Shown here: one piece after another, positions 1-14,446 of the stretch
Position numbering within the stretch: position 1 is the first letter of the stretch
Layout of the letters: the number at the start of each line of letters is the position of its first letter
Source of the DNA: Modicisalibacter luteus DSM 23508
GTDB lineage: Bacteria > Pseudomonadota > Gammaproteobacteria > Pseudomonadales > Halomonadaceae
Direction: 5' to 3'
DNA: 64,000 bases
NCBI RefSeq assembly: GCF_000378505.1
Contig: NZ_KB899995.1
Span: 186,001-250,000 of the forward strand
Position numbers and translations under genes: made by a program
The notes under the pieces: generated by a model
What the model was told of the DNA's origin: nothing
What the model saw: the letters and a program-made list of their open reading frames with translations, nothing else
The model's database searches: none

Positions 1-458
1 CGAAAGGCCGTGAACTCTATGATCGGCTGCTCGGCGAGTCGCGCCGACAAACGGCGGGGCTGGACAATACCGAACACCAGCGCGTCCTGACCGAGATCTT
101 TACCGACTTTCCCGATACGGAAGCGGAGCTGCGCCGCCAAAAGCTGGCATTCTTCGAATACCGATTGACCGAGGCAGGCCGCAACTCAGGCAAGGTGAGC
201 GATACGAATCTCGAAGCATTGATCGAGCAGGGCCTCGTAGAGGCCCGGCCGATTACCTACGAGGACTTTCTCCCGATCAGTGCGGCAGGCATCTTCCAAT
301 CGAACCTCGGCGGCGATAACAACGAGGCCTATGCCGGCAACGCGAACCGGGACGCCTTCGAGGCCTCCCTGGAAGGCAAGGTCCTTGATGAGCTGACGCT
401 CTACGCCGAGCGCGAGAGCGCATCTTGCCGGGCGGTGCTGCAGGCATTGCAAGGCTAA
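1..458 (+). CDS. 2-oxoadipate dioxygenase/decarboxylase (HglS/YdcJ, DUF1338), C-terminal part
   Basis: Only the last ~152 codons are present; the gene enters from the left edge, with its frame starting at base 3. The visible part contains GRELYDRLL and, near the end, ITYEDFLPISAAGIFQSNLG, which I recognise as the conserved C-terminal signature of DUF1338 proteins such as E. coli YdcJ. Characterised members (Pseudomonas HglS) convert 2-oxoadipate to D-2-hydroxyglutarate in lysine breakdown, using a VOC-like fold and one metal ion. Most metal ligands of the family lie in the missing upstream part, so activity cannot be judged here. The gene ends at TAA, just before a hairpin terminator, and converges on the CocE-type hydrolase gene. 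Family assignment is fairly sure; the exact substrate is inferred. Confidence 0.75.
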   Translation, partial: KGRELYDRLLGESRRQTAGLDNTEHQRVLTEIFTDFPDTEAELRRQKLAFFEYRLTEAGRNSGKVSDTNLEALIEQGLVEARPITYEDFLPISAAGIFQSNLGGDNNEAYAGNANRDAFEASLEGKVLDELTLYAERESASCRAVLQALQG

Positions 459-475
459 TCCGGTCCGTTCACCCG

Positions 476-509
476 CGGCCCTTGCCTTCCTTGAGGCGAG
501 GGCCGTTTT
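476..509 (+). terminator. Rho-independent terminator
   Basis: An 11-bp stem (476-486 with 495-505, one G-T wobble, CGGCCCTTGCC pairing with GGCGAGGGCCG) has an 8-nt loop and is followed by TTTT. It lies 18 bp after the stop of the HglS-like gene and before the convergent hydrolase gene. Confidence 0.75.
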
Positions 510-2551
510 CAGACGAGGTCGCGCGGGATTTCCTCGTCCCAACTCTTGGCAAAGACCCGGCTATCGCCTTCGTAGGCATCCAGTGTCGCCCGCAAGCGAA
601 AGCTTTCTGCATTGGACGTCATCAATGTACGGGTCACACTTCGTACTTCCCAGTCGCCACGTCGGAAACTGCGCTCCCATTCGGTCCAGCCGCTCAGGCT
701 GTCGTAGTTGCCGTAGGCATAGGTATAGCGCTCGACAACACGTGACGAGAGTTGGAGATCGATATCATCGAGACGGAAGGTGCCCTCGTCATTGATGACT
801 TCGAGTGTGGTCTGATCCTTGGCCAGGTCTCGTATCACCCGCCATGCTTCTTGGCTTGGCTGTATCAGGGTCACCGCTAGCGGCGGCGCGCCCTCCGGCG
901 GGCCGAAGTGGGGCAGGGCCGCTTCTTCCTGGGGCCGGGGCTCGCGGCATGGCAGGATCAGCCGGCAGCCGGCAGGGTGTACTGTCAGCTTGACGGGAAC
1001 CGGCGATGGCCAGGCCAGCGGCCAGTAACTGGTCGAGAGCGAGAGCCGGATGGCGTTACCCACCGGAAACTTCTGCGCGATGTGTTTAAGCGGTACACGC
1101 ACGCGATAACGCTTGCCGGGTTCCAGTGGCTGGGGAAATTCGTCACTGTCACGGTGAGTCAGGTTGAGCAGGCCATAGGATATCCGGGTCGCCTTGTCGT
1201 CTTCCGCAATGTCGCTGAGCCGTAGCGCCACCATGGCTACCGGTTGGTCGGCCTCGATGTCGAGCTCGACCACGGGTTGTCCGCAAATTTCGATGTCGTG
1301 ATCGAGTCGTGCCGTCTGGAATATCAGCGCACCGCCATCCTCGTCGCGTTGATCGTGAGGCAGATCCGGCGGGGCATTGTAGGAACACCACTTGCCGGCA
1401 TATAACCCTACCGACAGCGGCGAGCGCACAGAGAGGGGAGTATCGTCGCCCGTTACGGCAGTCGCAGGATCCTGCGGGGCAGGCACGAGGTCATGCCCGC
1501 TGGTGAGACGGAAATGCTTCGGCTCGATCCGCGGTGAAGGCCAGCTCGGTTCGGCAACCCAGCGCCCCGGTCGAAATTCATAGCGGGCCGACGGTGGAAC
1601 CGATTCCTGCATCCATACGCGCAGCATCGGCTCGTCCATGATGCTCGTTTCCTTGCCCTTCAACCAATGATCCCACCAGCGCAGCGACTCCTGTAAAAAG
1701 CCGATGGCCGGGCCTGGAACGCCAAGGTGGGGGTACTTGTGCGCCCACGGGCCAACCAGGCCCTTGCGTGGCACGTCGAGCCCCGCGAGCAACCGGAACA
1801 CGGCATTGCAGTAACCGTCAGCCCAACCGCTGATGGCATAGACGGGGCAGTGAATGCGTGAGAAATCCTCGCAGACCGAGCCATGCTTCCAGTAGTCGTC
1901 GCGCCGCTGATGCTGGAGCCAGGTAGCCAGCCAGAGGCCGCTATCCTCAAGGCGCTCCCGCCACATGTCCCGCCAGCGCTCGCCGACCAGTAACGGGTCG
2001 GGTGGGCAGGTATTGGCATCGAACATGGTCGAGGCCCATGACAGGTTGTCGCCGAGCAGGCAGCCGCCCATGTGGTGGATATCATCGGCGTAGCGATCAT
2101 CGGTCGAACACAGCGTGATGACGGCTTTCAGCTCGGGCGGCTGCAGGGCCGCGATCTGCAGGCCGTTGAACCCGCCCCAGGAAATACCGACCATGCCGAC
2201 ATCGCCGGTGCACCAGGGTTGCTCACCTAGCCAGCGCAGGATTTCGACGCCATCGTCCAGTTCCTGCTGCAGATATTCATCAGTCAGCACGCCGTCCGAC
2301 TCGCCGCTGCCGCGGATATCTACACGGACTCCGGCGTAGCCATGACCGGCCCAGTAAGCGTGCGTCTGAGCATCGCGCATTGCCGTCAGGTCTCGCTTGC
2401 GATAAGGCAGGTACTCGAGAATCGCCGGCACCGGATCGCTCTCGGCATCCACCGGGCGCCAGATACGCATGCCCAGCCGGCAACCATCGGCCAGCGTGAT
2501 CCAGCCTTCTTCCTCCTGAACGTCGCGGGGAAAATCGCTGACGATATGCAT
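509..2551 (-). CDS. CocE/NonD family serine hydrolase
   Basis: A 680-residue alpha/beta hydrolase of the X-Pro dipeptidyl-peptidase/cocaine esterase family (peptidase S15-like). The nucleophile elbow GISWGG puts Ser124 at the active site. Asp245 in GWADGY and His271 in GPWAHKYPH complete a plausible triad. The C-terminal ~300 residues match the jelly-roll domain typical of CocE proteins. No signal peptide is visible, so it is probably cytoplasmic. The ATG at 2551 follows a GGGAGCAGGG ribosome site. It is the second gene of a leftward pair: the ATP-grasp gene ends 59 bp upstream, and the pair is divergent from the cyanophycin operon. Family members cleave esters, amides or N-terminal dipeptides; the substrate here is unknown. 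A role in processing an aspartyl-arginine-derived compound is my inference only. Confidence 0.85.
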   Translation of the reverse strand: MHIVSDFPRDVQEEEGWITLADGCRLGMRIWRPVDAESDPVPAILEYLPYRKRDLTAMRDAQTHAYWAGHGYAGVRVDIRGSGESDGVLTDEYLQQELDDGVEILRWLGEQPWCTGDVGMVGISWGGFNGLQIAALQPPELKAVITLCSTDDRYADDIHHMGGCLLGDNLSWASTMFDANTCPPDPLLVGERWRDMWRERLEDSGLWLATWLQHQRRDDYWKHGSVCEDFSRIHCPVYAISGWADGYCNAVFRLLAGLDVPRKGLVGPWAHKYPHLGVPGPAIGFLQESLRWWDHWLKGKETSIMDEPMLRVWMQESVPPSARYEFRPGRWVAEPSWPSPRIEPKHFRLTSGHDLVPAPQDPATAVTGDDTPLSVRSPLSVGLYAGKWCSYNAPPDLPHDQRDEDGGALIFQTARLDHDIEICGQPVVELDIEADQPVAMVALRLSDIAEDDKATRISYGLLNLTHRDSDEFPQPLEPGKRYRVRVPLKHIAQKFPVGNAIRLSLSTSYWPLAWPSPVPVKLTVHPAGCRLILPCREPRPQEEAALPHFGPPEGAPPLAVTLIQPSQEAWRVIRDLAKDQTTLEVINDEGTFRLDDIDLQLSSRVVERYTYAYGNYDSLSGWTEWERSFRRGDWEVRSVTRTLMTSNAESFRLRATLDAYEGDSRVFAKSWDEEIPRDLV

Positions 2552-2610
2552 GACCCTGCTCCCTTTACCGTAACCGGATGTCTCACGTTTCGTGCCCGTG
2601 GCGAGAACGC

Positions 2611-3912
2611 TCAGCCTACGATGTCATCGAACTCGAAATGTAGCTGCTCGGCGAGTCTTGCGTAGTTCTCTTCCAGTGCAACGTCATCGTCTGCGCCCAT
2701 CCACACGTAGGCCAGGGCGAAGCTGTAGCTGTCCTGCTCAGGCAGGGATGACAAGCGCGTGCCCACGTCGACCTGTACCGCGATAAAGGTGCCGGGGAAC
2801 GCTCGCTGCAGTGTCTCGATCTCCTCGATACTCGGCACTTTGCTGACGGTGGCATCGACGAAGAACACCCGATAGAAGAATTTCGCTGCGACCTTGAATG
2901 CCCCTTGGCGGTAAGGCATGTCTGGCAACTGTCCCAGAGCCAGGTCCACGGTCACTTGCTGATGGCTGACCCCATCGACCTTTTCGAACAGGTCGCAATG
3001 CGACTGTGCGATACGAGTATTGATTTCCAATAACCAGATACGGTCTTGCACTTCGTCCCAGAAGTATTCGATATTGAAGGCGGCATTGTCGTACCCGATA
3101 TGGGCCATGACTTGGCGAGTTAGCTCTTGCATCCTTGTCTGAATGGAAGAGGGCAGGCGGGACGGATAGCGATAAGAGAAGAAGCTCAAGACTTGCGGAT
3201 AGCGAATCGAATCGACGATGCCATAAGGAACGACGTCGCCTTGGAACACGTAGCCTTCGACCGTACATTGCCAGCCACCGATAATCTCCTCCGCCATACA
3301 GTGGCCACCATCGACCGAGCGTACGCCGTCTGGCAGATTGGCGTGCTCCAGCACGTAATTGAACGGCTCCGAAATCGTCCCTATGCCTTCGCATAAGCGC
3401 GCTACGGCATAGGAAAAGTCCTCGGGGCTCTCGATGCGGAAACCCAGTCGCGAGCCTGATGACTTGATGGGTTTGACGAAGAAGGGGAAATACAGACCAG
3501 CTTCGCCGATATGCTGCAGTGCCTGGACATCGAAGGGATCGAAGGCGGTAAAACGCGGAATATACTCGGCGATCACCTCGCGTTGGACGAGCCGACTCCA
3601 ATACTTGTGCTCGCATTTGAGCAAGCTTTCCAGACTGGTAGAGCGTGTGCCAAATCGCTCGCAAAGCAGCGGCAACATGGTCGAGACGGGAAAATCCATG
3701 TAGCCAACGATGGCATCGATAGGCTCACTAAATTCTTTCAACTGGGTTTCGGCTCGGGCCAACATGTCTTCGATAGGAAAGATTTCCGTATCATAGACTT
3801 CCGTTGGCTCGATCACGCCATGGAACTGGTAATTCTCAGCTCCACGTAAATGCTCTAGCCGTTTACGATTGTGTTCATCCAGCCCGACAACAAACACGTT
3901 CCGAACGCTCAT
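2611..3912 (-). CDS. ATP-grasp domain ligase, unknown substrate
   Basis: A 433-residue protein of the ATP-grasp superfamily, whose members join a carboxylate to an amine or thiol through an acyl-phosphate. The N-terminus (VFVVGLDEHNRK) looks like the pre-ATP-grasp domain. Residues ~110-330 hold the grasp fold, with FPFFVKPIKSSGSRLGF (nucleotide-binding lysine and flexible loop), YVLEHANL, and the metal-binding WLLEINTRIAQSH. The remaining ~100 residues are a C-terminal domain I do not recognise. I chose the start at 3912 because a perfect AGGAGG lies 5 nt upstream; a longer open frame to 4005 has no such site. It is first in a two-gene leftward unit with the CocE-type hydrolase and shares its upstream region with cphB. 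It differs from CphA, which has its own ATP-grasp domain. Substrate unknown. Confidence 0.8.
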   Translation of the reverse strand: MSVRNVFVVGLDEHNRKRLEHLRGAENYQFHGVIEPTEVYDTEIFPIEDMLARAETQLKEFSEPIDAIVGYMDFPVSTMLPLLCERFGTRSTSLESLLKCEHKYWSRLVQREVIAEYIPRFTAFDPFDVQALQHIGEAGLYFPFFVKPIKSSGSRLGFRIESPEDFSYAVARLCEGIGTISEPFNYVLEHANLPDGVRSVDGGHCMAEEIIGGWQCTVEGYVFQGDVVPYGIVDSIRYPQVLSFFSYRYPSRLPSSIQTRMQELTRQVMAHIGYDNAAFNIEYFWDEVQDRIWLLEINTRIAQSHCDLFEKVDGVSHQQVTVDLALGQLPDMPYRQGAFKVAAKFFYRVFFVDATVSKVPSIEEIETLQRAFPGTFIAVQVDVGTRLSSLPEQDSYSFALAYVWMGADDDVALEENYARLAEQLHFEFDDIVG

Positions 3913-4265
3913 GATCGCCTCCTGGCGCAAGCTCGGCTGTCGCAGTTCCCGCCGCTGAGGTGCAGCAGATCGCAGGCAGGGAAAGACACTTGTCCGCCTT
4001 GGCATTCAAGCCAGGCATGGGAACGGCCAATTATCGAAGCATAGCGGTTTATCGTTGCTGCGCTGGGGCACTACGCGAGAAAGCAGGAATTTTCATTGCT
4101 CTTCAGGAGGGGGTTAGTCAGGCCCGGGGTTCGTTATTAATCTGGCTAGGGTGGTATCCGGCTGTTATAAGTGAAGACACGGGTTAAGCATCAGGCGACA
4201 CGACATTACCGGTATCGGTAATGATTCAGCGTTCCTCAAAAGCGTCGCTGGGCGGCGAATGGGAT
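3913..4265. promoter_or_regulatory. Divergent control region between ATP-grasp unit and cphBA-iadA
   Basis: This 353-bp gap must hold the promoters for both the leftward ATP-grasp/CocE pair and the rightward cyanophycin operon. Its right half is noticeably more AT-rich. I cannot assign -35/-10 boxes with confidence. The clearest element is the palindrome at 4205-4222, listed separately. No gene is visible here. Confidence 0.5.
4205..4222. promoter_or_regulatory. Palindrome upstream of cphB, possible operator
   Basis: A perfect inverted repeat of ATTACCG and CGGTAAT separated by GTAT. It sits 43 bp upstream of the chosen cphB start, where a repressor could block transcription. No regulator gene is adjacent, so the protein that binds it is unknown. 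Confidence 0.4.
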
Positions 4266-5120
4266 ATGGCTTCACACCCCCCCACCGTTTCCGGTCATAT
4301 CGTGGCCATCGGCGGTGCCGAGGACAAGACCTCCGAACTCGCCATTCTTCGACGGGTTTTCGAGCTTGCTCCCGAAGACAGTGACGAAGTGGCCATCATC
4401 ACCACGGCCAGCAGCATTCCTGAACAGCTCTTGCCTACCTACGAGACGGCCTTCTCTCGCCTGGGTGCAAGCCAGGTCCACGCCCTGGACATCCAGGATC
4501 GCAAGCAAGCCGCCGATGCCGACAACGTCCGGTTGATCCAGCGAAGTGGCGTGATTTTCTTTACTGGAGGGGATCAGCTTCGCCTGACCAATATCTTTGG
4601 CGGTTCAGCCACACTCCGGGCCATTCGTGAGCGTTTGAGGGCGGGTGCCGTCGTGGCGGGGACCAGTGCGGGGGCTGCAGCCATGCCTAGCACCATGATC
4701 TACAACGGTGCGGCGGCAGACGCCTTGCGCAAGGGCGCGGTCAACATGACCTTCGGTCTGGGCTTCGTCCGCGGGATGATCATCGACAGTCATTTTCTCG
4801 AGCGCGGTCGATTCACTCGGCTCATGGAAGTGGGCGCCAGCAACCCCGAGCAGCTGGGCGTCGGCCTCGGCGAGGATGCGGCGGTCATCATCCATCCTAG
4901 CCGCATCCTGGAAACCATCGGGCCTGGGCACGTCATCATCATCGATAGCCGGGATCTGGCGAGTTCCAATATTGCGGAGCTGGCCATGGGCGAGCCGGTT
5001 GCCATCGAGAACATGATCCTGCATGCCATGGTCAGTGGCCATGGGTACGACATCGATGCGCGGCGCTATCTCGTTGCCGACGAGCTCAACGCCATCCTGG
5101 CGGAGAAACACGTACGATGA
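4266..5120 (+). CDS. cphB: Cyanophycinase
   Basis: A 284-residue peptidase-family-S51 enzyme that cuts the polymer cyanophycin (multi-L-arginyl-poly-L-aspartate) to beta-Asp-Arg dipeptides in the cytoplasm. The catalytic serine is Ser134 in GTSAGAAAM. Other family hallmarks are GGAEDK at the N-terminus, IFFTGGDQLRLTN before the active site, and IIDSHFLERGRFTRL after it. No export signal is seen, consistent with an intracellular enzyme. The ATG at 4266 gives a normal N-terminus for the family. An in-frame ATG at 4221 lies inside a palindrome and lacks a ribosome site, so I reject it. The stop overlaps the cphA start as ATGA, which indicates translational coupling. Confidence 0.93.
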   Translation: MASHPPTVSGHIVAIGGAEDKTSELAILRRVFELAPEDSDEVAIITTASSIPEQLLPTYETAFSRLGASQVHALDIQDRKQAADADNVRLIQRSGVIFFTGGDQLRLTNIFGGSATLRAIRERLRAGAVVAGTSAGAAAMPSTMIYNGAAADALRKGAVNMTFGLGFVRGMIIDSHFLERGRFTRLMEVGASNPEQLGVGLGEDAAVIIHPSRILETIGPGHVIIIDSRDLASSNIAELAMGEPVAIENMILHAMVSGHGYDIDARRYLVADELNAILAEKHVR

Positions 5121-7756
5121 ATATCCTCGAGCATCGGGCGCTACGCGGCCCTAATTACTACAGCCGCTATCCGGCCATCTTCATGCGCCTGGACATCGGT
5201 GAGCTTGAGGATCGGCCGAGCGATACCATTCCCGGCATCGTCGAACGCGTCACCGAGCTTCTACCCACCCTGTACGAACATCGCTGTTCGGTAGGGCGGG
5301 CAGGTGGGTTTCTGGAGCGTCTCGAGCGGGGCACCTGGGCCGGACATGTGGTAGAGCATGTCGCGATCGAATTGCAGAACCTGATCGGCTTCTCGGTGGG
5401 TTACGGCAAGACGGTCGACTCCTACGACACCGGCATCTATAACGTCGTCTATCGCTACCGGGACGAGGCCTGCGGCCTGGCGGCCGGAGTGGAAGCCGTC
5501 GATATCGTCGCCCGGCTCTTCAACGGCGACGATATTGATATCTCATCAGTCATCACTCGCCTCAAGCACGTCCGCGACGCGCATATGCTGGGGCCGTCTA
5601 CCGCGTCCATCGTGGATGCCGCCATGCGCCGCGGGATTCCCTGTGCTCGCCTTGACGAGAACAGCAGTTATGTTCAGTTGGGCCATGGTTGTCGTCAGCA
5701 GCGGATCCAGGCGACGGTGACCGGCCGCACGAACCTGATCAGCTACGGTATCGCCGACGACAAGCACTGGACCAAGCAAGTGCTCGGCGAAGCCGGTATT
5801 CCCGTGCCGCGTGGGTGCGTTTGCCACTCGATCGATGAAGCGCTCGAGGCCGCCCTCGATATCGGCTATCCCGTCGTCGTAAAACCGCTGATCGGGAACC
5901 ACGGCCGGGGCGTCAGCACGGATATACACGACGAACAGGCTCTGCAGGAAGCGTTCGCTATCGCATCCCGCCGGAATTCCTCGGTCATCGTCGAGAGGTA
6001 CGTCAAGGGAGAGGACCATCGACTGCTGGTGATCGATGGCAAGCTTGTGGCCGCCGCCCGGCGGCGCCCGGCGCATGTGGTCGGCGATGGACAGTCGACG
6101 CTGCAGGCACTGATCGACAGGGAGAACCAGGACCCGCGTCGCGGAATCGGCCATGAAAACCTGCTGACACAGATACAGGTGGACGAGCAGTCGCATCGAC
6201 TGATCGCTCAGCAGAAGCTGACCCTCGAGAGCGTCATCCCCAAGGATGAGATCGTCTACCTGAAGCCCACGGCAAACCTCAGCACCGGGGGCACGGCGAC
6301 GGATGTCACCGATGATGTCCACCCTGATGTGAAGTACACGGCGGAGCGCATCGCTCGCCTGGTCGGACTCGATATCATTGGCATCGACCTGCTCGCCGAG
6401 ACCCTGACGCGCCCCTTGGAAGAGCAGTCTGCCGCGGTGGTCGAAGTCAACGCCGGACCGGGGTTTCGCATGCATCTTTCACCGACCCATGGCACGGGCC
6501 GCGATGTCGGCCAACACGTGATAGAGATGCTTTTCCCCGATAGCGAGGACACCGGACGGATACCCATCGTTGCGGTGACCGGGACCAACGGAAAAACCAC
6601 CACGGTGCGCCTGATCTCGCACTTGCTCCGCCAGGCGGGACGCAGCGTCGGCACGGCTTGCACGGGGGCCATCGAGATCGACAACCACACCATCCTGCGT
6701 GGGGATTACAGTGGGCCGCAGGCGGCCGCGACCGTACTCCGCGAGCCCACCGTCGAGTATGCCGTGCTCGAGGTCGCACGAGGCGGCATCATGCGGCGCG
6801 GGTTGGGGTTTGATGAGTGTCAGGTTGGCGTACTGCTGAACATTGCGAGCGACCATCTGGGGGAAAACGACATCCGCACTCTGGATGAGCTGGCACGTTG
6901 CAAGAGCGTGGTCATCGATGCGGTCCGCCAGGAAGGGACGGCCGTGCTCAATGCCGATGATCCCCGCGTACTGGCGAGTCGGGAATGGGCCAGAGGGGAT
7001 GTGATTTACTTTTCCCTGAACCCCGACTCCCAACCTGTCCGTCAGCATGTGCATCACCATGGGGTCGCTTTCACGGTACATGATGGGGCCATCGTGATGC
7101 GCCAGGGCCATGTCGAAGCCACAGTCATCCCCGTCGTGGATGCTCCCATTACGTTTGAAGGGCATGCGCGTTTCAATATTGCCAATGCCCTGGCCGCCAG
7201 CGCCGCCGCTTATGCCCTGGGGCTAAGCATCGCCGACATCCAGTTGGGTTTGCAGACGTTCCATCCCTCGCCGGGGCAGAACCCGGGGCGTACCAATCTG
7301 ATCGATGCCGGCGACATGAAAGTGTTGATCGATTACGGCCATAACGTGCCGGCGCTCGAAGCCTTGAGCGAGCTCGTAAGCCGTATCCCCGCGCACCGGC
7401 GCATTTGCGTGGCCAGCGCCCCGGGCAATCGCCGCGACGAGGACCTGTTCAGCCTGGGGGGTCAGCTCGCCAGCATGCATGACTTCGTCTTTCTCTGCGA
7501 GACCGACCCGCGTGGCCGCCCCGACGGTGAAACCGTCAACCTGTTGCGCGCTGGCGCGGAGTCGGAGCCTGGTACCTGCCGAGTCGAGGTGATCATGAAA
7601 GAACGCCACGCGGTCGACAGAGCGTTCGATGAGGCCAGGGAAGGCGATCTGCTGGTATTGCTGATCGAGGACATCGACCACGCCACCGAGCGCCTGCGTG
7701 GCCGCCGGTTCCTGCCGGATACGACGACGGACAGCGACGCAGGTGGCCGATCATGA
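5117..7756 (+). CDS. cphA: Cyanophycin synthetase
   Basis: An 879-residue enzyme that makes cyanophycin from Asp and Arg using ATP, of normal length for CphA1. Order of parts: an N-terminal CphA-specific domain (1-~210); an ATP-grasp domain (~215-470) with VVVKPLIGNHGRGV near 252-266 and the metal-binding EVNAGPGFRMH near 441-451; then a Mur-ligase-like domain with the P-loop GTNGKTT at 489-495 and DYGHNVPALEAL towards the C-terminus. The ATP-grasp half adds Asp to the backbone and the Mur-like half adds Arg to each side chain. It overlaps cphB at its start and iadA at its end (ATGATG), so all three are one operon able both to build and to break down the polymer. Confidence 0.95.
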   Translation: MNILEHRALRGPNYYSRYPAIFMRLDIGELEDRPSDTIPGIVERVTELLPTLYEHRCSVGRAGGFLERLERGTWAGHVVEHVAIELQNLIGFSVGYGKTVDSYDTGIYNVVYRYRDEACGLAAGVEAVDIVARLFNGDDIDISSVITRLKHVRDAHMLGPSTASIVDAAMRRGIPCARLDENSSYVQLGHGCRQQRIQATVTGRTNLISYGIADDKHWTKQVLGEAGIPVPRGCVCHSIDEALEAALDIGYPVVVKPLIGNHGRGVSTDIHDEQALQEAFAIASRRNSSVIVERYVKGEDHRLLVIDGKLVAAARRRPAHVVGDGQSTLQALIDRENQDPRRGIGHENLLTQIQVDEQSHRLIAQQKLTLESVIPKDEIVYLKPTANLSTGGTATDVTDDVHPDVKYTAERIARLVGLDIIGIDLLAETLTRPLEEQSAAVVEVNAGPGFRMHLSPTHGTGRDVGQHVIEMLFPDSEDTGRIPIVAVTGTNGKTTTVRLISHLLRQAGRSVGTACTGAIEIDNHTILRGDYSGPQAAATVLREPTVEYAVLEVARGGIMRRGLGFDECQVGVLLNIASDHLGENDIRTLDELARCKSVVIDAVRQEGTAVLNADDPRVLASREWARGDVIYFSLNPDSQPVRQHVHHHGVAFTVHDGAIVMRQGHVEATVIPVVDAPITFEGHARFNIANALAASAAAYALGLSIADIQLGLQTFHPSPGQNPGRTNLIDAGDMKVLIDYGHNVPALEALSELVSRIPAHRRICVASAPGNRRDEDLFSLGGQLASMHDFVFLCETDPRGRPDGETVNLLRAGAESEPGTCRVEVIMKERHAVDRAFDEAREGDLLVLLIEDIDHATERLRGRRFLPDTTTDSDAGGRS

Positions 7757-8922
7757 TGCCCCGCAATGCGTGTACTCCCGGGCTCATGACCTTGTTGCGC
7801 GTTGGCGGTATTTTTTCACCCGATCGGCTCGAGGCGACCGACATCCTCATGGCGGGGGGGAAGATTATCGCGCTGGGAAGCGACCTCGACGTTCCCGGGG
7901 GCTGGCCTATCCACGTGGAGGAGGCGCGCCATCTTATCGCCGTTCCCGCCTTCATCGATCAACATGTCCATGTCACCGGCGGCGGGGGCGAAGGTGGTTG
8001 CGGTACTCGCTGTCCGGAAATTTCGGCCCAGGAAATCGCGTCGATGGGAATTGGTACGGTTGTGGGTGTACTTGGCACGGATGGCATCAGTCGCTCCCCG
8101 GCAGACCTGCTGGCCAAGGTACGCGGGCTTGGTGCCGAAGGTATTTGTGCCTACATGTATACCGGCGCGTATCGCGTACCGCCTCCCACGTTGACCGGCG
8201 ACATTCAACGCGACCTGGCCTGGATCCCCGAGGTCATCGGCCTGGGCGAAATCGCCATTTCGGACCATCGGTCGAGCCAGCCACGCCAGGATGAAATCGA
8301 ACGGATCGTCAGCGATACACGCGTCGGCGCCATGCTGGCAGGCAAGCGGGGAATCTGCCATTTCCATATCGGGGATGGAAAGCGGGGGCTGGAGCCGCTG
8401 CGTAGATTGCTGACCGAGACCGAGATTCCCGCCGACCAGGTGATCCCGACCCATGTGAATCGCCGGCGTGAGTTGCTCGAGGAGGCTGCAGATTACGCGT
8501 TAACGTTCAACGCAAGTGTGGACGTAACCGCCTTTGAAGATGCCGGTGACGGCCTTTCCAGCTTTGATGCCGTGTCCCGGTTACTTGAGCTCGGCGTTCC
8601 TCCGGCGCGCATCACCCTGAGCTCCGATTGCAACGGCAGCTTGCCTGAATTCGACGCTGAAGGTGCGTACCTGGGAATGAAGGTAGCCAGGAACACTACC
8701 CTGATTGCGGATTGGCAACGTCTCGTCCATGAAGGTGTGCTGCCTCTCGAAACGGCCTTGGGACTGATTTCCACGAACGTGGCCCGGGTACTCGGGTTAC
8801 ACGCCAGCAAGGGGCGCTTGGCTGTTGGTTTCGATGCCGATGTGGCCCTACTCGACAGCGAACTTCAGCCACAGCAGACGTTTGTATCTGGGAAATCCGT
8901 TTTCAAGACAATCAAGCGCTAG
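7753..8922 (+). CDS. iadA: Isoaspartyl dipeptidase, cyanophycin-associated, Glu at metal bridge
   Basis: A 389-residue amidohydrolase that should split the beta-Asp-Arg dipeptides released by CphB into aspartate and arginine. Metal and substrate residues are visible: His71 and His73 in DQHVHV, Glu80 in GGGGEGG, His205 in HFHIGDG, His234 in THVNR, and Asp292 in LSSDCNGS. In E. coli IadA the two zinc ions are bridged by carboxylated Lys162 in VKCAISDHRS. Here the aligned segment is LGEIAISDHRS, with Glu166 in that place and a one-residue insertion. Glutamate at this strand is known in other amidohydrolases such as NagA, so the site may still bind metal. The start ATGATG overlaps the cphA stop. 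Its place as third gene of the cph operon supports a cyanophycin role over general protein repair. Confidence 0.92.
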   Translation: MMPRNACTPGLMTLLRVGGIFSPDRLEATDILMAGGKIIALGSDLDVPGGWPIHVEEARHLIAVPAFIDQHVHVTGGGGEGGCGTRCPEISAQEIASMGIGTVVGVLGTDGISRSPADLLAKVRGLGAEGICAYMYTGAYRVPPPTLTGDIQRDLAWIPEVIGLGEIAISDHRSSQPRQDEIERIVSDTRVGAMLAGKRGICHFHIGDGKRGLEPLRRLLTETEIPADQVIPTHVNRRRELLEEAADYALTFNASVDVTAFEDAGDGLSSFDAVSRLLELGVPPARITLSSDCNGSLPEFDAEGAYLGMKVARNTTLIADWQRLVHEGVLPLETALGLISTNVARVLGLHASKGRLAVGFDADVALLDSELQPQQTFVSGKSVFKTIKR

Positions 8923-9080
8923 TCAGGATAAAACCACAATCCAGGGTTCGCAGTGTCTTTCCTGATGCAGTGGCCATGCCTCGCCAACATGGCTAGTTAC
9001 TGAAGAATCGATGCAGGGCGGATCGTAAAAGGCTCGGAACCTCTGTTAGCTTATTGTGATGGTGTCCTTGAGAGGCTGTT

Positions 9081-9539
9081 ATGAAAGCTGCAGTACTGGT
9101 GGTTCTTGTCGGGCTTGCCGTTGCGTTATTCGCTTGGTTTCCCAATAAGGAAAATCCCGAGCAACCCAACATCGATAGCATGCATCGCCAAGCTGCTGTC
9201 ACCGACGCTCGGATCGCCCTGGCCGGTTCACAAGCGGAGTGTATTGCGCTGGCGGACGGCGAGTATGGGAAGGCCGTGACCGAGTCCTTGAACTATGTCG
9301 GGCTGAAGCCTGATTACCAGCGTGTCCTTCAGGACGGGAGCGGAAGCCAGCCGGAGACACCAAGCGATAGCCAGCGCGAGGATCTTCGCGCCGAGTTCGA
9401 TTCGATGGGCCATGCCGGGCTCGTGCTGCTCATGTGCCTGCGCCATCTGGATGATGAGGGTATCGTGCCGCTTGGGGAGAGCGTGCCTACCGTCGCCGAG
9501 CGGCTGTCTCGTCCTTCGGCACAAGGGCAAGGCGGTTAG
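9081..9539 (+). CDS. Small membrane-anchored or exported protein, unknown
   Basis: A 152-residue protein with a hydrophobic N-terminus (MKAAVLVVLVGLAVALFAWF) that could be a signal anchor, followed by a polar domain with two cysteines (in AECIAL and LLMCLRHLDDEG). No cleavage motif is clear, so anchoring in the inner membrane with a periplasmic domain is the simplest reading. The start is supported by GAGAGG 5 nt upstream. I do not recognise the family. It follows iadA by 158 bp with no evident link to cyanophycin. Confidence 0.7.
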   Translation: MKAAVLVVLVGLAVALFAWFPNKENPEQPNIDSMHRQAAVTDARIALAGSQAECIALADGEYGKAVTESLNYVGLKPDYQRVLQDGSGSQPETPSDSQREDLRAEFDSMGHAGLVLLMCLRHLDDEGIVPLGESVPTVAERLSRPSAQGQGG

Positions 9540-9668
9540 TTTCTGCATGAGGCATGCGAAGGCTCGCCAAGCCACCATCCCCATGGACTAAAGACTAACG
9601 AGGCCGTTACGCCACTGCATCAAGCGGGGTTCTATGCTGTAGGTAGCTTCGTCTCGTTGGAGGCGGCA

Positions 9669-9953
9669 ATGAACAGGCAGCTTGGTGCGGCGTTTTTGAT
9701 CCTTATGGTTACGGGGTGTGCCTCATACCAGCGTCCGCACGACGATACGGCGGGATTCCAGTTGGCAGGGCAGGCGTGCCGGGATGAACCCATGAGCTTG
9801 GGCACGACGATGTTTCACGCTCAGGATGCCTCCTCCGTACGTATGGCCATCTTGGCCACACCTTCGGATTTCACTATGCGAAGTGCCTCCACGCCGGCCA
9901 CGAGTCCGTTGCTGTTTCGACACCTCACCTCGCGCATGGCTTGTCTCGATTGA
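9669..9953 (+). CDS. Putative small lipoprotein, possibly frameshifted
   Basis: The start ATG at 9669 follows a strong GGAGG site. The N-terminus MNRQLGAAFLILMVTGCASY is a clear lipoprotein signal with the lipobox VTGC (cysteine at residue 17). The first ~55 residues look ordinary. After about base 9838 the frame becomes rich in S, T, P and R and looks less like a natural protein. A different frame, reading TYGHLGHTFGFHYAKCLHAG, stays open from there to the TGA at about 10188, inside the terminator hairpin. The gene may therefore carry a frameshift, or simply end in a disordered tail. Family not recognised. Confidence 0.5.
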   Translation: MNRQLGAAFLILMVTGCASYQRPHDDTAGFQLAGQACRDEPMSLGTTMFHAQDASSVRMAILATPSDFTMRSASTPATSPLLFRHLTSRMACLD

Positions 9954-10177
9954 AAGCGGGGCCTCCTCCATTGATGTGCCTGGGCATGAAGGTGGCAACC
10001 CTCAAAACAATGACGAGAATCATGCTTGGGCTCGCTTGCCGGCCGGCCAGGACTGATTCTAGATTACAAGTAAGCCAGCAGACCGATACCGCCATGGCAG
10101 TTCCCGTTCCAGCACTATTCCATGGATGGAGTAGCCGGTACGGTACTGCTGGCTGTAATGATACGTCCTATGAAATT

Positions 10178-10207
10178 GCCCCCAGCTGAGAAGCTCGGGG
10201 CTTTTTG
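10178..10207 (+). terminator. Rho-independent terminator
   Basis: A GC-rich hairpin (GCCCC-AGC paired with GCT-CGGGGC, one bulged base, loop TGAGAA) is directly followed by TTTTT. It would end transcripts from the lipoprotein region. It also shows that the following regulator gene must start downstream of it. Confidence 0.75.
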
Positions 10208-10250
10208 GTGTTTCAGGCTGGCGCGACGGCAATCGCTCAAGCAAGGCGAA

Positions 10251-11054
10251 ATGCGTTATGTTGGTAGAGTGCTTTCGTTGCCGAGTCGCTACATGACAAG
10301 CAAACCACGCCCTGACCACGCCTGCTCGAACACCGCAGCCTTACCTCAGTCTGACGACGCCTCGAAGACGCAGGCGCGCCCCACCAAGCTCAGCGATCGC
10401 GTTTATGGCGACATCGTCGAACGCATTCTTCAGGGTGAGTACGGCGAGGGTGATCGGTTGCCTTCCGAGACGAAGCTGGCCGAGATGAACCGGGTCTCCC
10501 GCCCCATTGTCCGTGAGGCCCTGTCCCGCCTCAGGGAGGATGGGCTGGTGCGTTCGCAACGGGGCGCGGGAAGCTACGTCGAGTGCCGTCCGGATCGCGC
10601 CATGCTGGACTTCGCCCCGCTGGAAAGCCTGGCGGATATGCAGCGCTGTTTTGAATTCCGCGCGGCACTGGAGGGGGAATCGGCACGCCTGGCAGCACAG
10701 CACGTTTCTCCCTCCTCTCTCAAGGAGATCGAACGGGCACTGCAACGTCTCGAGGAATGCATCCAGGCCGGCGAGCTCGGTGTCGATGCAGACTTCGGCT
10801 TTCATCTGGCCATTGCCGAAGCGACCAACAATCGCTTTTTCACCGATACGCTGCTGTCCCTGAAGCCGCAGATCAATTTCGGTCAGAACCTGGCGCGCAA
10901 CCTGGGGTTGCGTCGCCCCGGGCAGCATTTGCCCGAAGTCCAGCAGGAGCACGTTAAAATTCTTCAGGCCATTCGCGAGGGCGATCCTGAACGCGCGTGC
11001 CAACGCATGCGTCAGCACATCGGAAATTCTCGACGTCGAGTATTCGAAGGGTAA
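10251..11054 (+). CDS. GntR family regulator, FadR/FCD type (likely tartrate operon)
   Basis: A ~267-residue regulator with an N-terminal winged helix (KLSDRVYGDIVERI, then LAEMNRVSRPIVREALSRLREDGLV) and a C-terminal FCD ligand domain (FEFRAALEGESARLAAQ, DFGFHLAIAEATNN). FCD regulators usually bind small carboxylic acids through histidines and an aspartate of this domain. The start is uncertain: ATG at 10251 has an AAGG site, while ATG at 10293 is also possible; anything upstream of 10207 is excluded by the terminator. It lies 334 bp upstream of, and in the same direction as, the TTT transporter and tartrate enzymes. Control of that operon is my inference from position. Confidence 0.85.
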   Translation: MRYVGRVLSLPSRYMTSKPRPDHACSNTAALPQSDDASKTQARPTKLSDRVYGDIVERILQGEYGEGDRLPSETKLAEMNRVSRPIVREALSRLREDGLVRSQRGAGSYVECRPDRAMLDFAPLESLADMQRCFEFRAALEGESARLAAQHVSPSSLKEIERALQRLEECIQAGELGVDADFGFHLAIAEATNNRFFTDTLLSLKPQINFGQNLARNLGLRRPGQHLPEVQQEHVKILQAIREGDPERACQRMRQHIGNSRRRVFEG

Positions 11055-11388
11055 ACCGACGGTACTCAGGCCTGTTGTCTGATATCCGGTATGACAAGTT
11101 TCGTTGCTGATTCGCCGACATTTAATAGAACAATAAAATACTCATAATCAATTATATAGCTATGTATATAGACCGTATTTTTTAGGCTTACTCCTGCCGC
11201 TCCGACTAATGTCTATACACTCTGAGTGGACAGGTTTTACAAGTTGGCTAGCTTTAAAAGGTGAGGTACGTGTTCAGGCTGTCCTGTCGGGAATGCGTAT
11301 ATCGTTTTGTCCGCTCAAACCATGCCGGTGACAAGAACAATCGAGCGGACGAAGTCGCCAGACCACAAGAATACCAAGGAGTACGCCA
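11055..11388 (+). promoter_or_regulatory. Promoter region of the TTT/tartrate operon
   Basis: A 334-bp gap with an AT-rich core (about 11120-11190) suited to promoter and operator sites for the operon that follows. I see no strong perfect palindrome and no coding potential. Box assignment would be guesswork. Confidence 0.45.
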
Positions 11389-12348
11389 ATGAAACTCGCC
11401 ACGACCCGCTGGGTAGGCTCGCTGTCTATGCTGGCCGCCTTGGGCATGCCCGGCATCGCCTTTGCCGAGTACCCTGAACAGCCCATTACCTACACGATTC
11501 CTTTCGATCCGGGCGGCGAATCCGATGTCACGGCGCGCTTCCAGGAACCCCATCTGGAAGAGATTCTGGGAGTCGACGTCAACGTGAATCATCGACCCGG
11601 GGGCGGTGGCGCCGTCGGCTGGAGCGAATTCCAGAACAACGCCGAGCCGACGGGCTATGAAATGATCGGGGTAAATATTCCGCATATCATTGCGCAGCCC
11701 ATCATGCGTGAGAATGCCGGCTACGAAACTGACAACTGGAAGATCGTGACCTTCTTCCACACGACACCCAACGCGCTGATCGTGCCCAAGGATAGTCCCT
11801 TCGAGTCGCTGGATGATCTGGTCCAGTATGCCAAGGAGAATCCCCAGGCGGTGACGCTGGGCGGCAGCGGGACGTTCAGTGCCAACCATCTGGGTGCCTT
11901 GCGCCTGGAGCGTGAAGCTGACATCGACGTGACCTACATTCCATTCACCGGCACGGGGCCGTTACCGGCGGCGGTCCAGGGCGGTCACGTCTCGGGCATC
12001 TTCAACTACTCCATGCTTGGCGTACAGATGCAGGATAACGCCCGCGTGCTGGCCGTGGCCTCGGAAGAGCGTGTGCCGGCCCTGCCGGACGTGCCGACCT
12101 TCAAGGAGTTGGGCTATGACATCGTCGGCGGAGCCTACCGCGGTGTCGCTGTGCCCAAGGATACCCCCGACGAGATCGTCAATAAGCTGGAAGAGGCATT
12201 TGCGCAGACCAACCAGCGTATCGCTGAAAAACAGGAGCCGCTCGGCTTCGTCATGACCGACATCACCGACGAGGAGGTGGATAAGATCATCCAGCAACTC
12301 AAGTCGGCCTACCAGCCCATTCTCGAAGAAGCCAAAGCCAACCAGTAA
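11389..12348 (+). CDS. TTT transporter periplasmic binding protein (Bug/TctC family)
   Basis: A 319-residue extracytoplasmic solute-binding protein. The first ~26 residues (ending GMPGIAFA) are a Sec signal peptide. The mature part starts YPEQPITYTIPFDPGGESDVTAR, the usual beginning of Bug proteins, which clamp a carboxylate of the ligand through the two loops near here and near GGSGTFSANHLG. It carries the ligand to the TctA/TctB membrane pair encoded just downstream. The start follows AAGGAG. Given the tartrate enzymes in the same operon, the ligand is probably tartrate or D-malate; that specificity is inferred from context. Confidence 0.9.
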   Translation: MKLATTRWVGSLSMLAALGMPGIAFAEYPEQPITYTIPFDPGGESDVTARFQEPHLEEILGVDVNVNHRPGGGGAVGWSEFQNNAEPTGYEMIGVNIPHIIAQPIMRENAGYETDNWKIVTFFHTTPNALIVPKDSPFESLDDLVQYAKENPQAVTLGGSGTFSANHLGALRLEREADIDVTYIPFTGTGPLPAAVQGGHVSGIFNYSMLGVQMQDNARVLAVASEERVPALPDVPTFKELGYDIVGGAYRGVAVPKDTPDEIVNKLEEAFAQTNQRIAEKQEPLGFVMTDITDEEVDKIIQQLKSAYQPILEEAKANQ

Positions 12349-12367
12349 CGCAGCGTGACGCGTCATG

Positions 12368-12399
12368 CGACCCTGTGGTCCGTCCGGGCTGCAGGGTCG
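12368..12399 (+). other. Intercistronic hairpin
   Basis: An inverted repeat (CGACCCTG with CAGGGTCG, 16-nt GC-rich loop) lies in the 104-bp gap between the binding-protein gene and tctA. There is no T-run, so it is not a standard terminator. Hairpins in this position often protect the upstream message and help give more binding protein than permease. Confidence 0.4.
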
Positions 12400-12452
12400 G
12401 GTGCTGACCGGTCATCTGACGCGACCCCTCATGCATTCAGTGGAGTTGGCTT

Positions 12453-13994
12453 ATGGACATGCTTCTCGAAGCGCTGCTTTCGATCCTGACGCTCGAAGGG
12501 CTGGTCACGATTCTGGCCGGGGTAACGGCGGGGCTATTCATCGGTGCCCTGCCCGGTCTCACGGCGACCATGGCCCTGGCGGTACTGTTGCCGTTCACCT
12601 TCACGATGTCGCCCCTGCAGGGGTTGATGGCGCTGGGGGCGGTCTATATGGGCGCCATCTACGGCGGGGCCTTTACCGCCATCCTGATCAACACGCCGGG
12701 GACGCCATCGTCGATTGCCACGACCTTCGACGGCTATCCCATGGCTCGCCAAGGACGTGCCTACGAGGCACTGGCCGCTGCCACCATCGCCTCGGTCGTT
12801 GGCGGTATCGTTGGGGTAACTTTTCTATTGCTGTTAGCGCCGCCGCTGGCGCGAATGGCCGTGGTGTTCGGGCCGGCGGAGATGTTCTGGGTGGCAATGC
12901 TGGGCCTGACCCTGGTTGCCAGCCTGTCCAGCGGTTCGCTACTCAAGGGGTTGCTTGGCGGTTGTATCGGCATGTTGTTGAGTACCATCGGGGTCTCGCC
13001 GATCGGTGGCGAAACCCGCTTCATCTTCGGCATGCCGGCCCTGCAGGGTGGGATCGAGCTGATCGTGGCCTTGATTGGGCTGTTCGTGATTCCCGAGTTG
13101 ATCTCGATGGCGGCCCAGGGACGGGGCGCCCTGCCCGAGAGCGGCAAGCTGCAGGGCGGCGCCGGCTCCGCCGTCATGCGGATGGGCAAGCATGTCTTCA
13201 GCAAGCCCATCAACCTGATTCGCTCCTGCATCATTGGCCAGATCATCGCCATCATCCCCGGCGCGGGGGGTAACGTCACCAGCCTGGTGGCGTATAACGA
13301 GGCCCGGCGTTTTTCGAAGGACCCGGCGTCGTTCGGCAAAGGCAACGTCGACGGGGTGATCGCCTCGGAATCAAGCAATAACGTCATGGTGGCCGGCAGC
13401 ATGGTGCCCCTGCTTACCCTGGGCATTCCGGGGGCGCCACCGGATGCCATCATTCTCGGGGTGTTGCTCATGCATGGCTTGCGTCCGGGGCTCGATCTGT
13501 TCACCCAAACCGGGGTGCTGACCAACGGCTTCATCCTCTCGATGGGCTTTGCGGCGCTGTTCCTGCTACCGGTCGGCTTGATGGGCGGCCGGTTGATTCA
13601 CCGCATCGTGGTCAAGACGCCGTTCTATTTCCTGCTGCCCAGCATCGCCATGGTCACCATTCTGGGAACCTATGCGCTGCGCAACAGCATGGTCGATGTA
13701 TTCATCATGCTGCTGCTGGGCACAGTGGGGTATTTCCTGCGCCTGATCGGCATCCAGGCCGCTCCCATCGTGCTGGGCATGATACTCGGCGTCATCGCCG
13801 AGAAAGGCTATGTGCAGACCATGCTGGCAGCGGTCGTGGACCCGATTCCTTGGCTGCGGCTGGTGTCCAACCCCTTGTCCATCGTCCTGGCCTGCCTGGT
13901 AGTGCTGAGTGTTGCGACCACCTTGTTGCCTGGCTGGCTGGAGCGCAGTGGGCGCATGGCCAAGGTCGACCGCGACGAGGAGCAATCGCCATGA
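12453..13994 (+). CDS. tctA: TTT transporter large membrane subunit (TctA)
   Basis: A 513-residue protein with about 12 membrane segments, normal for TctA. Family motifs visible include GALPGLTATMALAVLLPFTF near the N-terminus, YGGAFTAILINTPGTPSSIATTFDG, and a related second-half motif IPGAGGNVTSLVAYNEARR with ASESSNNVMVAGSMVPLLTLGIPGAP. The two similar halves reflect the internal duplication of the family. It forms the ion-driven transport channel in the inner membrane together with TctB and the periplasmic receptor. The start is preceded by a GGAG site. Its last codons overlap the tctB start as ATGA. Confidence 0.93.
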   Translation: MDMLLEALLSILTLEGLVTILAGVTAGLFIGALPGLTATMALAVLLPFTFTMSPLQGLMALGAVYMGAIYGGAFTAILINTPGTPSSIATTFDGYPMARQGRAYEALAAATIASVVGGIVGVTFLLLLAPPLARMAVVFGPAEMFWVAMLGLTLVASLSSGSLLKGLLGGCIGMLLSTIGVSPIGGETRFIFGMPALQGGIELIVALIGLFVIPELISMAAQGRGALPESGKLQGGAGSAVMRMGKHVFSKPINLIRSCIIGQIIAIIPGAGGNVTSLVAYNEARRFSKDPASFGKGNVDGVIASESSNNVMVAGSMVPLLTLGIPGAPPDAIILGVLLMHGLRPGLDLFTQTGVLTNGFILSMGFAALFLLPVGLMGGRLIHRIVVKTPFYFLLPSIAMVTILGTYALRNSMVDVFIMLLLGTVGYFLRLIGIQAAPIVLGMILGVIAEKGYVQTMLAAVVDPIPWLRLVSNPLSIVLACLVVLSVATTLLPGWLERSGRMAKVDRDEEQSP

Positions 13995-14446
13995 CCCTGC
14001 GACTCAATACCGATCTTGCGTCGGGCCTGTTCGGCCTGCTGTTCGCCGCCCTGTTGTGGTTTCCCCGCGAGGGTATGGGACGACTGAGCATCATCTTTCC
14101 CCGCGCCATTCTGGTCATCACCGTGGTGATTTCCCTGGCCCTGATAATCAAGGCCTTTACCAAGCCGGCGGCACGTGAAGTGCATATCGAAGGCAGCATG
14201 CGCCGCCTGGCCGTCATGGTGGTCGTGCTGTTCGCCTGGTGGTACGCCATCGGCCTGCTGGGTTTCCTGCTGGCCACGGTCATCGTCTTTTTCGGCCTCG
14301 TCTGGTACCTGGCGCGCATCGAAGGGCCGGTACCGGCGCGCCGTCTCGCCCAGTGGGTGCCGATTGTTGCCGTCCTGATCGGAGTGTTCTACCTGGCATT
14401 CACCCAGGTGTTGAACGTCAGGTTGCCGTCCGGCATCTGGTCGTGA
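13991..14446 (+). CDS. tctB: TTT transporter small membrane subunit (TctB)
   Basis: A 151-residue membrane protein with four predicted hydrophobic segments (LASGLFGLLFAALLWF, IIFPRAILVITVVISLALII, LAVMVVVLFAWWYAIGLLGFLLATVIVFF, and a C-terminal one), the normal layout of TctB. The ATG at 13991 lies in the ATGA overlap with tctA. The gene order binding protein-large subunit-small subunit differs from the classical tctCBA order but is common in TTT loci. Confidence 0.88.
   Translation: MTLRLNTDLASGLFGLLFAALLWFPREGMGRLSIIFPRAILVITVVISLALIIKAFTKPAAREVHIEGSMRRLAVMVVVLFAWWYAIGLLGFLLATVIVFFGLVWYLARIEGPVPARRLAQWVPIVAVLIGVFYLAFTQVLNVRLPSGIWS

Follow-up and report, generated by a model that had tools for sequence, protein, structure and literature searches.

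Gene content of the locus

We analysed a window of 64,000 nucleotides from the genome of Modicisalibacter luteus DSM 23508, a member of Halomonadaceae (contig NZ_KB899995.1, positions 186,001 to 250,000), in which a two-gene unit encoding an ATP-grasp ligase and a CocE/NonD serine hydrolase lies divergently from a cyanophycin operon, cphB-cphA-iadA. A preliminary description of this DNA had proposed these five genes, and curated models confirmed all of them at those places, with both strands as claimed; the reported gap of 353 bp between the divergent units also holds with starts at 3912 and 4266. CphB, CphA and IadA alike pass the cut-off of the respective equivalog model, which bears out their identities. 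The features are as follows:

509-2551, minus strand: CocE/NonD serine hydrolase (peptidase S15 fold), 680 residues, with a PepX_C domain and a C-terminal beta-rich extension (TIGR00976)
2611-3912, minus strand: ATP-grasp ligase with a predicted L-amino-acid-ligase fold, 433 residues (PF13535 above cut-off; reading frame open from 4005, likely start ATG at 3912)
3913-4265, no strand: intergenic region common to the divergent units, 353 bp
4205-4222, no strand: palindrome ATTACCG-GTAT-CGGTAAT, 61 bp before the cphB start at 4266
4266-5120, plus strand: cphB, cyanophycinase (TIGR02069, 235 bits, cut-off 126.6; alternative in-frame start ATG at 4221)
5117-7756, plus strand: cphA, cyanophycin synthetase with a Cx19HxxEH self-priming motif (TIGR02068, 1160 bits, cut-off 850)
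7753-8922, plus strand: iadA, beta-aspartyl (isoaspartyl) dipeptidase (TIGR01975, 388 bits, cut-off 331)

The cph genes overlap by 4 bp at both junctions (cphB/cphA and cphA/iadA), and 59 bp separate the CocE gene from the ATP-grasp gene. Cyanophycin metabolism is usually described with CphA, a cyanophycinase and a dipeptidase as its requirements. Given that the three genes match curated models and that the window's CphA can be aligned over its full length to cyanophycin synthetases of solved structure and carries the self-priming motif, the operon by itself looks like an ordinary, complete make-store-degrade pathway. A 2022 study (PMC9262961) links this motif in the N-domain to primer-independent synthesis and describes some CphA1 enzymes that require primers. 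The latter lends some ground to the notion that CphA receives short primers made by the ligase, which is nonetheless very improbable: the motif is kept in all 54 fetched loci with a halophile-type CphA (at least 70%; duplicate genomes included) and is visible, over the aligned stretch, in one of 10 loci with other CphA, the nine motif-free loci coming from ligase-free genomes. The ligase is, moreover, present in genomes without CphA.

The ATP-grasp/CocE pair is a conserved unit

Relatives of the ligase were collected from genome contigs, and the best 80 of 508 stretches were taken as the nearest loci, with flanks of up to 10 kb that are shorter at contig ends. The hydrolase adjoins the ligase in 79 of these 80 (none was found near the ligase of L115; it is in two pieces in L067 and is cut by the contig end in L117). 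The preliminary description had attached the pair to the cyanophycin operon. This stands for 26 of the 80 nearest loci, where the cph operon adjoins the pair, and fails for the other 54, where the pair lies away from cph, a number that is an upper bound given the shorter flanks at contig ends. The conserved unit is the ATP-grasp/CocE pair and not the five-gene set.

A further 30, mostly distant stretches contain ligase and hydrolase together in 23 cases. If close ligases (at least 69% in Halomonadaceae) are termed type 1 and distant ones (35-50% identity) type 2, both genes are present in all five type-1 loci of this set (L162-L164, L171, L172) and in 18 of the 25 type-2 loci; the ligase lacks an adjoining hydrolase in the remaining seven, including L144 and L145, where a contig end falls at the ligase. 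The gene order is reversed in L155 and L159, the pair is divergent in L150, and additional ligases occur in L148 and L149. In L148 (G203:C14) two different type-2 ligases stand in tandem beside one hydrolase, which hints at ligases of diverging specificity served by a common hydrolase. Four ligase residues and five hydrolase residues distinguish type 1 from type 2. No third partner gene recurs in the majority of either set, the 80 nearest loci or the 30 further ones; a loose, merged cluster of open reading frames resembling, by eye, sensor kinase/PAS proteins lies near 10 of the 30 further loci. For plasmid-borne ligase relatives (32-34%), no CocE gene is annotated within 8 kb in the two records viewed of 13. 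The window's genome also encodes a full type-2 pair (G000:C8:153768-157149, L143; ligase 44-45%, hydrolase 58%) and two more ligase copies at the starts of contigs G000:C29 and G000:C3 (L144, L145), and each of these three loci has an open reading frame of one family, Crp/Fnr-like by eye.

The pair and cyanophycin synthetase co-occur in one direction

At the level of whole genomes the association proposed earlier is upheld. All 63 sampled genomes with a halophile-type CphA, the type found in the window, carry a type-1 ligase; they comprise 56 Halomonadaceae, 3 other gammaproteobacteria and 4 alphaproteobacteria. Among 201 Halomonadaceae genomes CphA (E<=1e-150) was detected in 56 and a type-1 ligase in 80, so that the ligase is found in 56/56 CphA-bearing and 24/145 CphA-free genomes; the Fisher value of 6e-31 overstates the case, as the genomes are related, and the co-occurrence counts are uncorrected by a species tree. 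Within a single genus (g20) the type-1 ligase is present in 15/15 genomes with CphA and in 11 of at least 23 without (p=0.0008), the latter count being a minimum, as the ligase-free genomes are not all listed; leaving out two linked genomes gives p=0.002, the pair being unlinked in 13 of the 15 CphA genomes.

The rule extends beyond the family. In 369 gammaproteobacteria, window-type CphA (at least 74%) occurs in the window's genome and in three genomes of one other family, and exactly those four carry the ligase at 61% or more; 14 gammaproteobacterial genomes have other CphA (35-45%), none of them with a ligase at E<=1e-40. In the order of Fodinicurvata (61 genomes) window-type CphA (at least 71%) is present in four, and the type-1 ligase in those four plus one more (4/4 with CphA vs 1/57 without, p=1e-5), while none of eight alphaproteobacterial genomes with other-type CphA has the ligase at E<=1e-40. 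Overall, genomes with other CphA types carry it in 0/22 cases sampled. Sixty of the 63 genomes encode a full-length close hydrolase (at least 71%) and two, G004 and G445, a partial one; it was not found in one, the metagenome-derived G588. The type-2 ligase, which serves as an internal control, follows no such one-way rule in Halomonadaceae (21/56 genomes with CphA, 29/145 others).

The genome-level tie of the pair to cyanophycin is strong and one-way. It does not require proximity: 24 of the 63 genomes (23 Halomonadaceae and the alphaproteobacterium G596) have ligase and CphA no more than about 5 kb from each other, and the other 39 have them farther apart or on separate contigs. In the other direction, none of the 24 CphA-free Halomonadaceae with a type-1 ligase has a cyanophycinase at E<=1e-20, and none of 16 genomes with the distant ligase only has a CphA above the model cut-off. 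As the pair is mostly unlinked and ligases occur in CphA-free genomes, it is likely to be a module with a function of its own rather than an add-on to cyanophycin only.

History of the linkage

A tree of 94 ligase rows groups the head-to-head linked loci of Halomonadaceae in one strongly supported clade of 28 rows (100/99), whose members include records named Chromohalobacter, Vreelandella, Modicisalibacter, Litchfieldella and Billgrantia. One member of this clade, G498 (L181), has kept the pair next to a remnant of the operon, the last two thirds of iadA; the initial 118 residues of iadA are absent there, as are cphA and cphB. In the alphaproteobacterium G596 (L231) the pair lies tail-to-tail with cphA, with 9 bp between the reading frames, and its ligase falls in a different part of the tree; this other arrangement and separate position indicate that pair and cph became linked on two or more separate occasions. 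In the Rhodovibrio genome G588, cphBA has a type-2 ligase about 3 kb away. In Fodinicurvata fenggangensis the contig ends of pair and cph were compared and no overlap was seen.

These data bear on the alternative that the pair and halophile-type CphA have no functional tie and are separate accessory genes circulating among halophiles, with CphA being lost more readily. Such co-circulation would account for the 54 unlinked loci, the 24 CphA-free Halomonadaceae with the ligase and the survival of the pair in G498 after cphA and cphB had gone; furthermore, as the linked copies of Halomonadaceae form one clade across several genera, many of the genomes with both CphA and the pair are not independent. 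It does not readily explain the lack of any ligase-negative genome among the 63, the recurrence of the rule in an alphaproteobacterial order and within genus g20, where most CphA genomes are unlinked, the complete absence of the ligase from genomes with other CphA, or the renewed origin of adjacency in a different arrangement. Halomonadaceae are a halophilic family, yet a salt-loving habit alone is insufficient, since 121 of the 145 CphA-free members lack the close ligase. We regard co-circulation as a serious, if doubtful, possibility.

Predicted activities of the ligase and the hydrolase

The preliminary description had left the ATP-grasp protein as one of unknown type. Profile and structural comparisons now narrow this to the L-amino-acid (dipeptide) ligase fold, a prediction of class rather than of substrate, so that the earlier statement still holds for the substrate. 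A profile search of the PDB gave the L-amino-acid ligase BL00235 first (E 6e-12), and in a Foldseek search with the AlphaFold model (predicted local distance difference test, pLDDT, 94.9) BacD, BL00235 and RizA hold ranks 1-3 and 5-7, rank 4 being phosphoribosylglycinamide synthetase. All 42 ligase homologues match PF13535; K147, E282, E296, N298 and R300, residues predicted to have ATP/Mg roles, are invariant.

The hydrolase scores 223 bits against TIGR00976 (cut-off 66.3). S124, D245 and H271 are invariant in 30 of 30 aligned homologues and, judging from the motif and from the enzyme family, probably constitute an intact catalytic triad. A fold search with its model (pLDDT 85.5) returned cocaine esterase first, alpha-amino acid ester hydrolase from rank 16, and X-Pro dipeptidyl aminopeptidase also within the top 29; the enzyme is thus predicted to have the cocaine-esterase/alpha-amino-acid-ester-hydrolase fold, which again defines a class and not a substrate. 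CocE relatives are encoded in 214 plasmid records; of 12 listed ones eight were viewed, two of these being unannotated. In all six annotated records (47-54% identity) an ATP-binding cassette (ABC) transporter operon lies within 4 kb, annotated as oligopeptide/dipeptide in one case and generically in five, and those of Mesorhizobium sp. AR07 and Fuscovulum also contain genes resembling amino-acid or betaine breakdown. The nearby transporters suggest that substrates in the wider CocE family are small imported peptides or amides. Several Halomonadaceae also have head-to-head couples of CocE-family genes, about 61% and 53% to the window's (e.g. G018:C1:18548-22709 and G586:C51:313869-318137), and on these two contigs no ligase was found.

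A putative make-and-break module

We propose, with a probability of about 40%, that the pair is a make-and-break dipeptide (or amide) module on which the lineage of window-type CphA relies and which has another role besides. The ligase would probably join the carboxylate of an amino acid to an amine or a second amino acid with ATP, giving a small dipeptide or amide, and the hydrolase would probably split this product or a related small peptide. The module might handle the arginine/aspartate or beta-Asp-Arg pool from cyanophycin turnover, with cells that have halophile-type CphA depending on it, and might also act independently of cyanophycin, perhaps on a stress- or salt-related small peptide. 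A make-and-break system fits two enzymes of opposite sense that are nearly always together; dependence of the CphA lineage fits a CphA that never occurs without the ligase and a ligase that often occurs without CphA; small-peptide substrates for the window's hydrolase fit the ABC transporter operons near its distant relatives; and a second role is suggested by the persistence of the pair without cphA.

Several observations weigh against this proposal. Seven of the further loci have a ligase with no adjoining hydrolase, and the type-1 ligase is kept in 24 Halomonadaceae that lack cphA, G498 having the pair beside the ruins of the operon. The linked Halomonadaceae loci are a single clade, and the co-occurrence counts carry no correction by a species tree. 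Biotin-carboxylase and PurK folds score close behind the L-amino-acid ligases in the Foldseek search, and LAL_C2, the Pfam C-terminal domain of L-amino-acid ligases, is detected at E<=0.001 in 4 of the 42 homologues and not in the window's ligase. Finally, no common regulatory motif was established upstream of the unlinked pair and the unlinked cph genes.

Two further alternatives place the pair within cyanophycin metabolism itself. The first, that the ligase adds a residue to the ends or side chains of the polymer and the hydrolase removes it, would agree with the restriction of the tie to one CphA lineage, the opposite sense of the enzymes and the linkage to cph. We consider it unlikely, in view of the presence of the pair or ligase in CphA-free genomes, the end-to-end alignment of CphA with solved synthetases, and the fact that the closest folds of both enzymes act on small molecules. 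The second holds that the hydrolase is another beta-Asp-Arg dipeptidase and that the ligase forms this dipeptide, or a related one, anew. According to Sharon 2023 (PMC10206079), a gene weakly resembling cocaine esterase that adjoins a cluster of CphA1 and cyanophycinase might encode an isoaspartyl dipeptidase, and in L231 the pair adjoins cphBA with no match to iadA in the 20-kb stretch around them. In halomonads, by contrast, iadA adjoins cphA in all 26 linked loci and in 16 of the 17 unlinked cph loci that were viewed, which would make a second such enzyme redundant, and the pair also occurs without CphA; this possibility appears quite unlikely.

Returning to the module proposed above, a more specific version is that it is an undescribed make-and-break dipeptide system needed for keeping one CphA lineage and yields a new peptide derived from Arg, Asp or beta-Asp-Arg, be it a solute, a signal or a polymer modification. 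We rate this version as somewhat unlikely. If it were true, nitrogen storage in halophiles would be coupled to a new small peptide. That the ligase accompanies one CphA lineage in all genomes sampled and is missing from the 22 sampled genomes of other CphA types points to a further step or product in halophile nitrogen storage, and a concrete ligase and a concrete hydrolase are now available for assay against a short list of substrates.

The intergenic region and flanking genes

The palindrome that had been noted near cphB is present. Of the 27 head-to-head linked loci, counting that of the window, 16 contain it with no more than 2 mismatches, 55-63 bp before the cphB start used; L040, L043 and L048 have matching changes in both arms. 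This recurrence at a near-constant distance argues for more than chance. It was not seen in seven linked Chromohalobacter loci or in the alphaproteobacterial linked locus L231, nor, with the same tolerance, within 400 bp upstream of the unlinked pair or unlinked cph. Hence it may be a regulator site in part of the linked clade, which is no proof of common control; co-regulation of pair and cph through it is unsupported, the matches being confined to linked loci.

No sigma-70-like promoter or terminator-like site was found in 3850-4330, and no Rfam match in 1-12000. A search of the regions preceding 93 ligase starts and 55 cphB starts, a set with some duplicates, gave no sigma-54-like sites. 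Common 7-mers upstream of unlinked cphB (17 regions) and ligase (54) exceeded shuffled controls (0.134 vs a best of 0.065 in 20 base shuffles) and were rejected as a motif, the leading word being present in 3 of 17 cphB regions and most others being GC-rich. Just before the cphB start, at 4234-4262, lie overlapping 8-mers of AAAAGCGTCGC that are found again in 13 of the 17 unlinked cphB upstream regions; they represent either a repeat with a regulatory role or, with translation from the ATG at 4221, additional N-terminal residues of CphB. In 41 of 54 unlinked loci (L063-L117) the 250 bp preceding the ligase contain AGCATAG, on one or the other strand, perhaps as part of a promoter. Following the cph operon, at 9081-14446, the window encodes a 152-residue open reading frame without a Pfam match, a GntR/FCD regulator and an apparent tripartite tricarboxylate transporter; among the 80 loci a close GntR gene and the 152-residue frame are both present at that place only in L041.

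Comparison with known systems

The hydrolase has the S15 fold, a TIGR00976 score above cut-off and the invariant Ser/Asp/His in common with CocE/NonD hydrolases and alpha-amino acid ester hydrolases, from which it differs in being about 20% identical; relative to cocaine esterase it is about 100 residues longer (680 vs 574), with an extra C-terminal beta-rich extension. Likewise, the ligase resembles BacD/YwfE, BL00235 and RizA, as seen in the best PDB profile match (BL00235) and six of the top seven Foldseek matches, and is set apart by an identity of just 14-17% in the fold alignments and by the rarity of LAL_C2 among its homologues. The module is also alike in outline to the N-acetylglutaminylglutamine amide (NAGGN) osmoprotectant system, in which an ATP-grasp ligase and a peptidase act on a dipeptide solute. 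Its ligase Ngg is represented by the model TIGR03103, which is not among the NCBIfam matches of the window's ligase at E<=0.001 and is matched in the window by CphA alone.

No description of the ligase/hydrolase pair was found among the open-access papers listed, absence there being no proof of novelty, and the terms ATP-grasp and Halomonas are absent from the main text of the 2023 survey of cyanophycin clusters (PMC10206079). With the clusters of that survey the window shares the same three gene types, namely cphA1, cyanophycinase and isoaspartyl dipeptidase, to which it adds a ligase/hydrolase module tied to them at the genome level.

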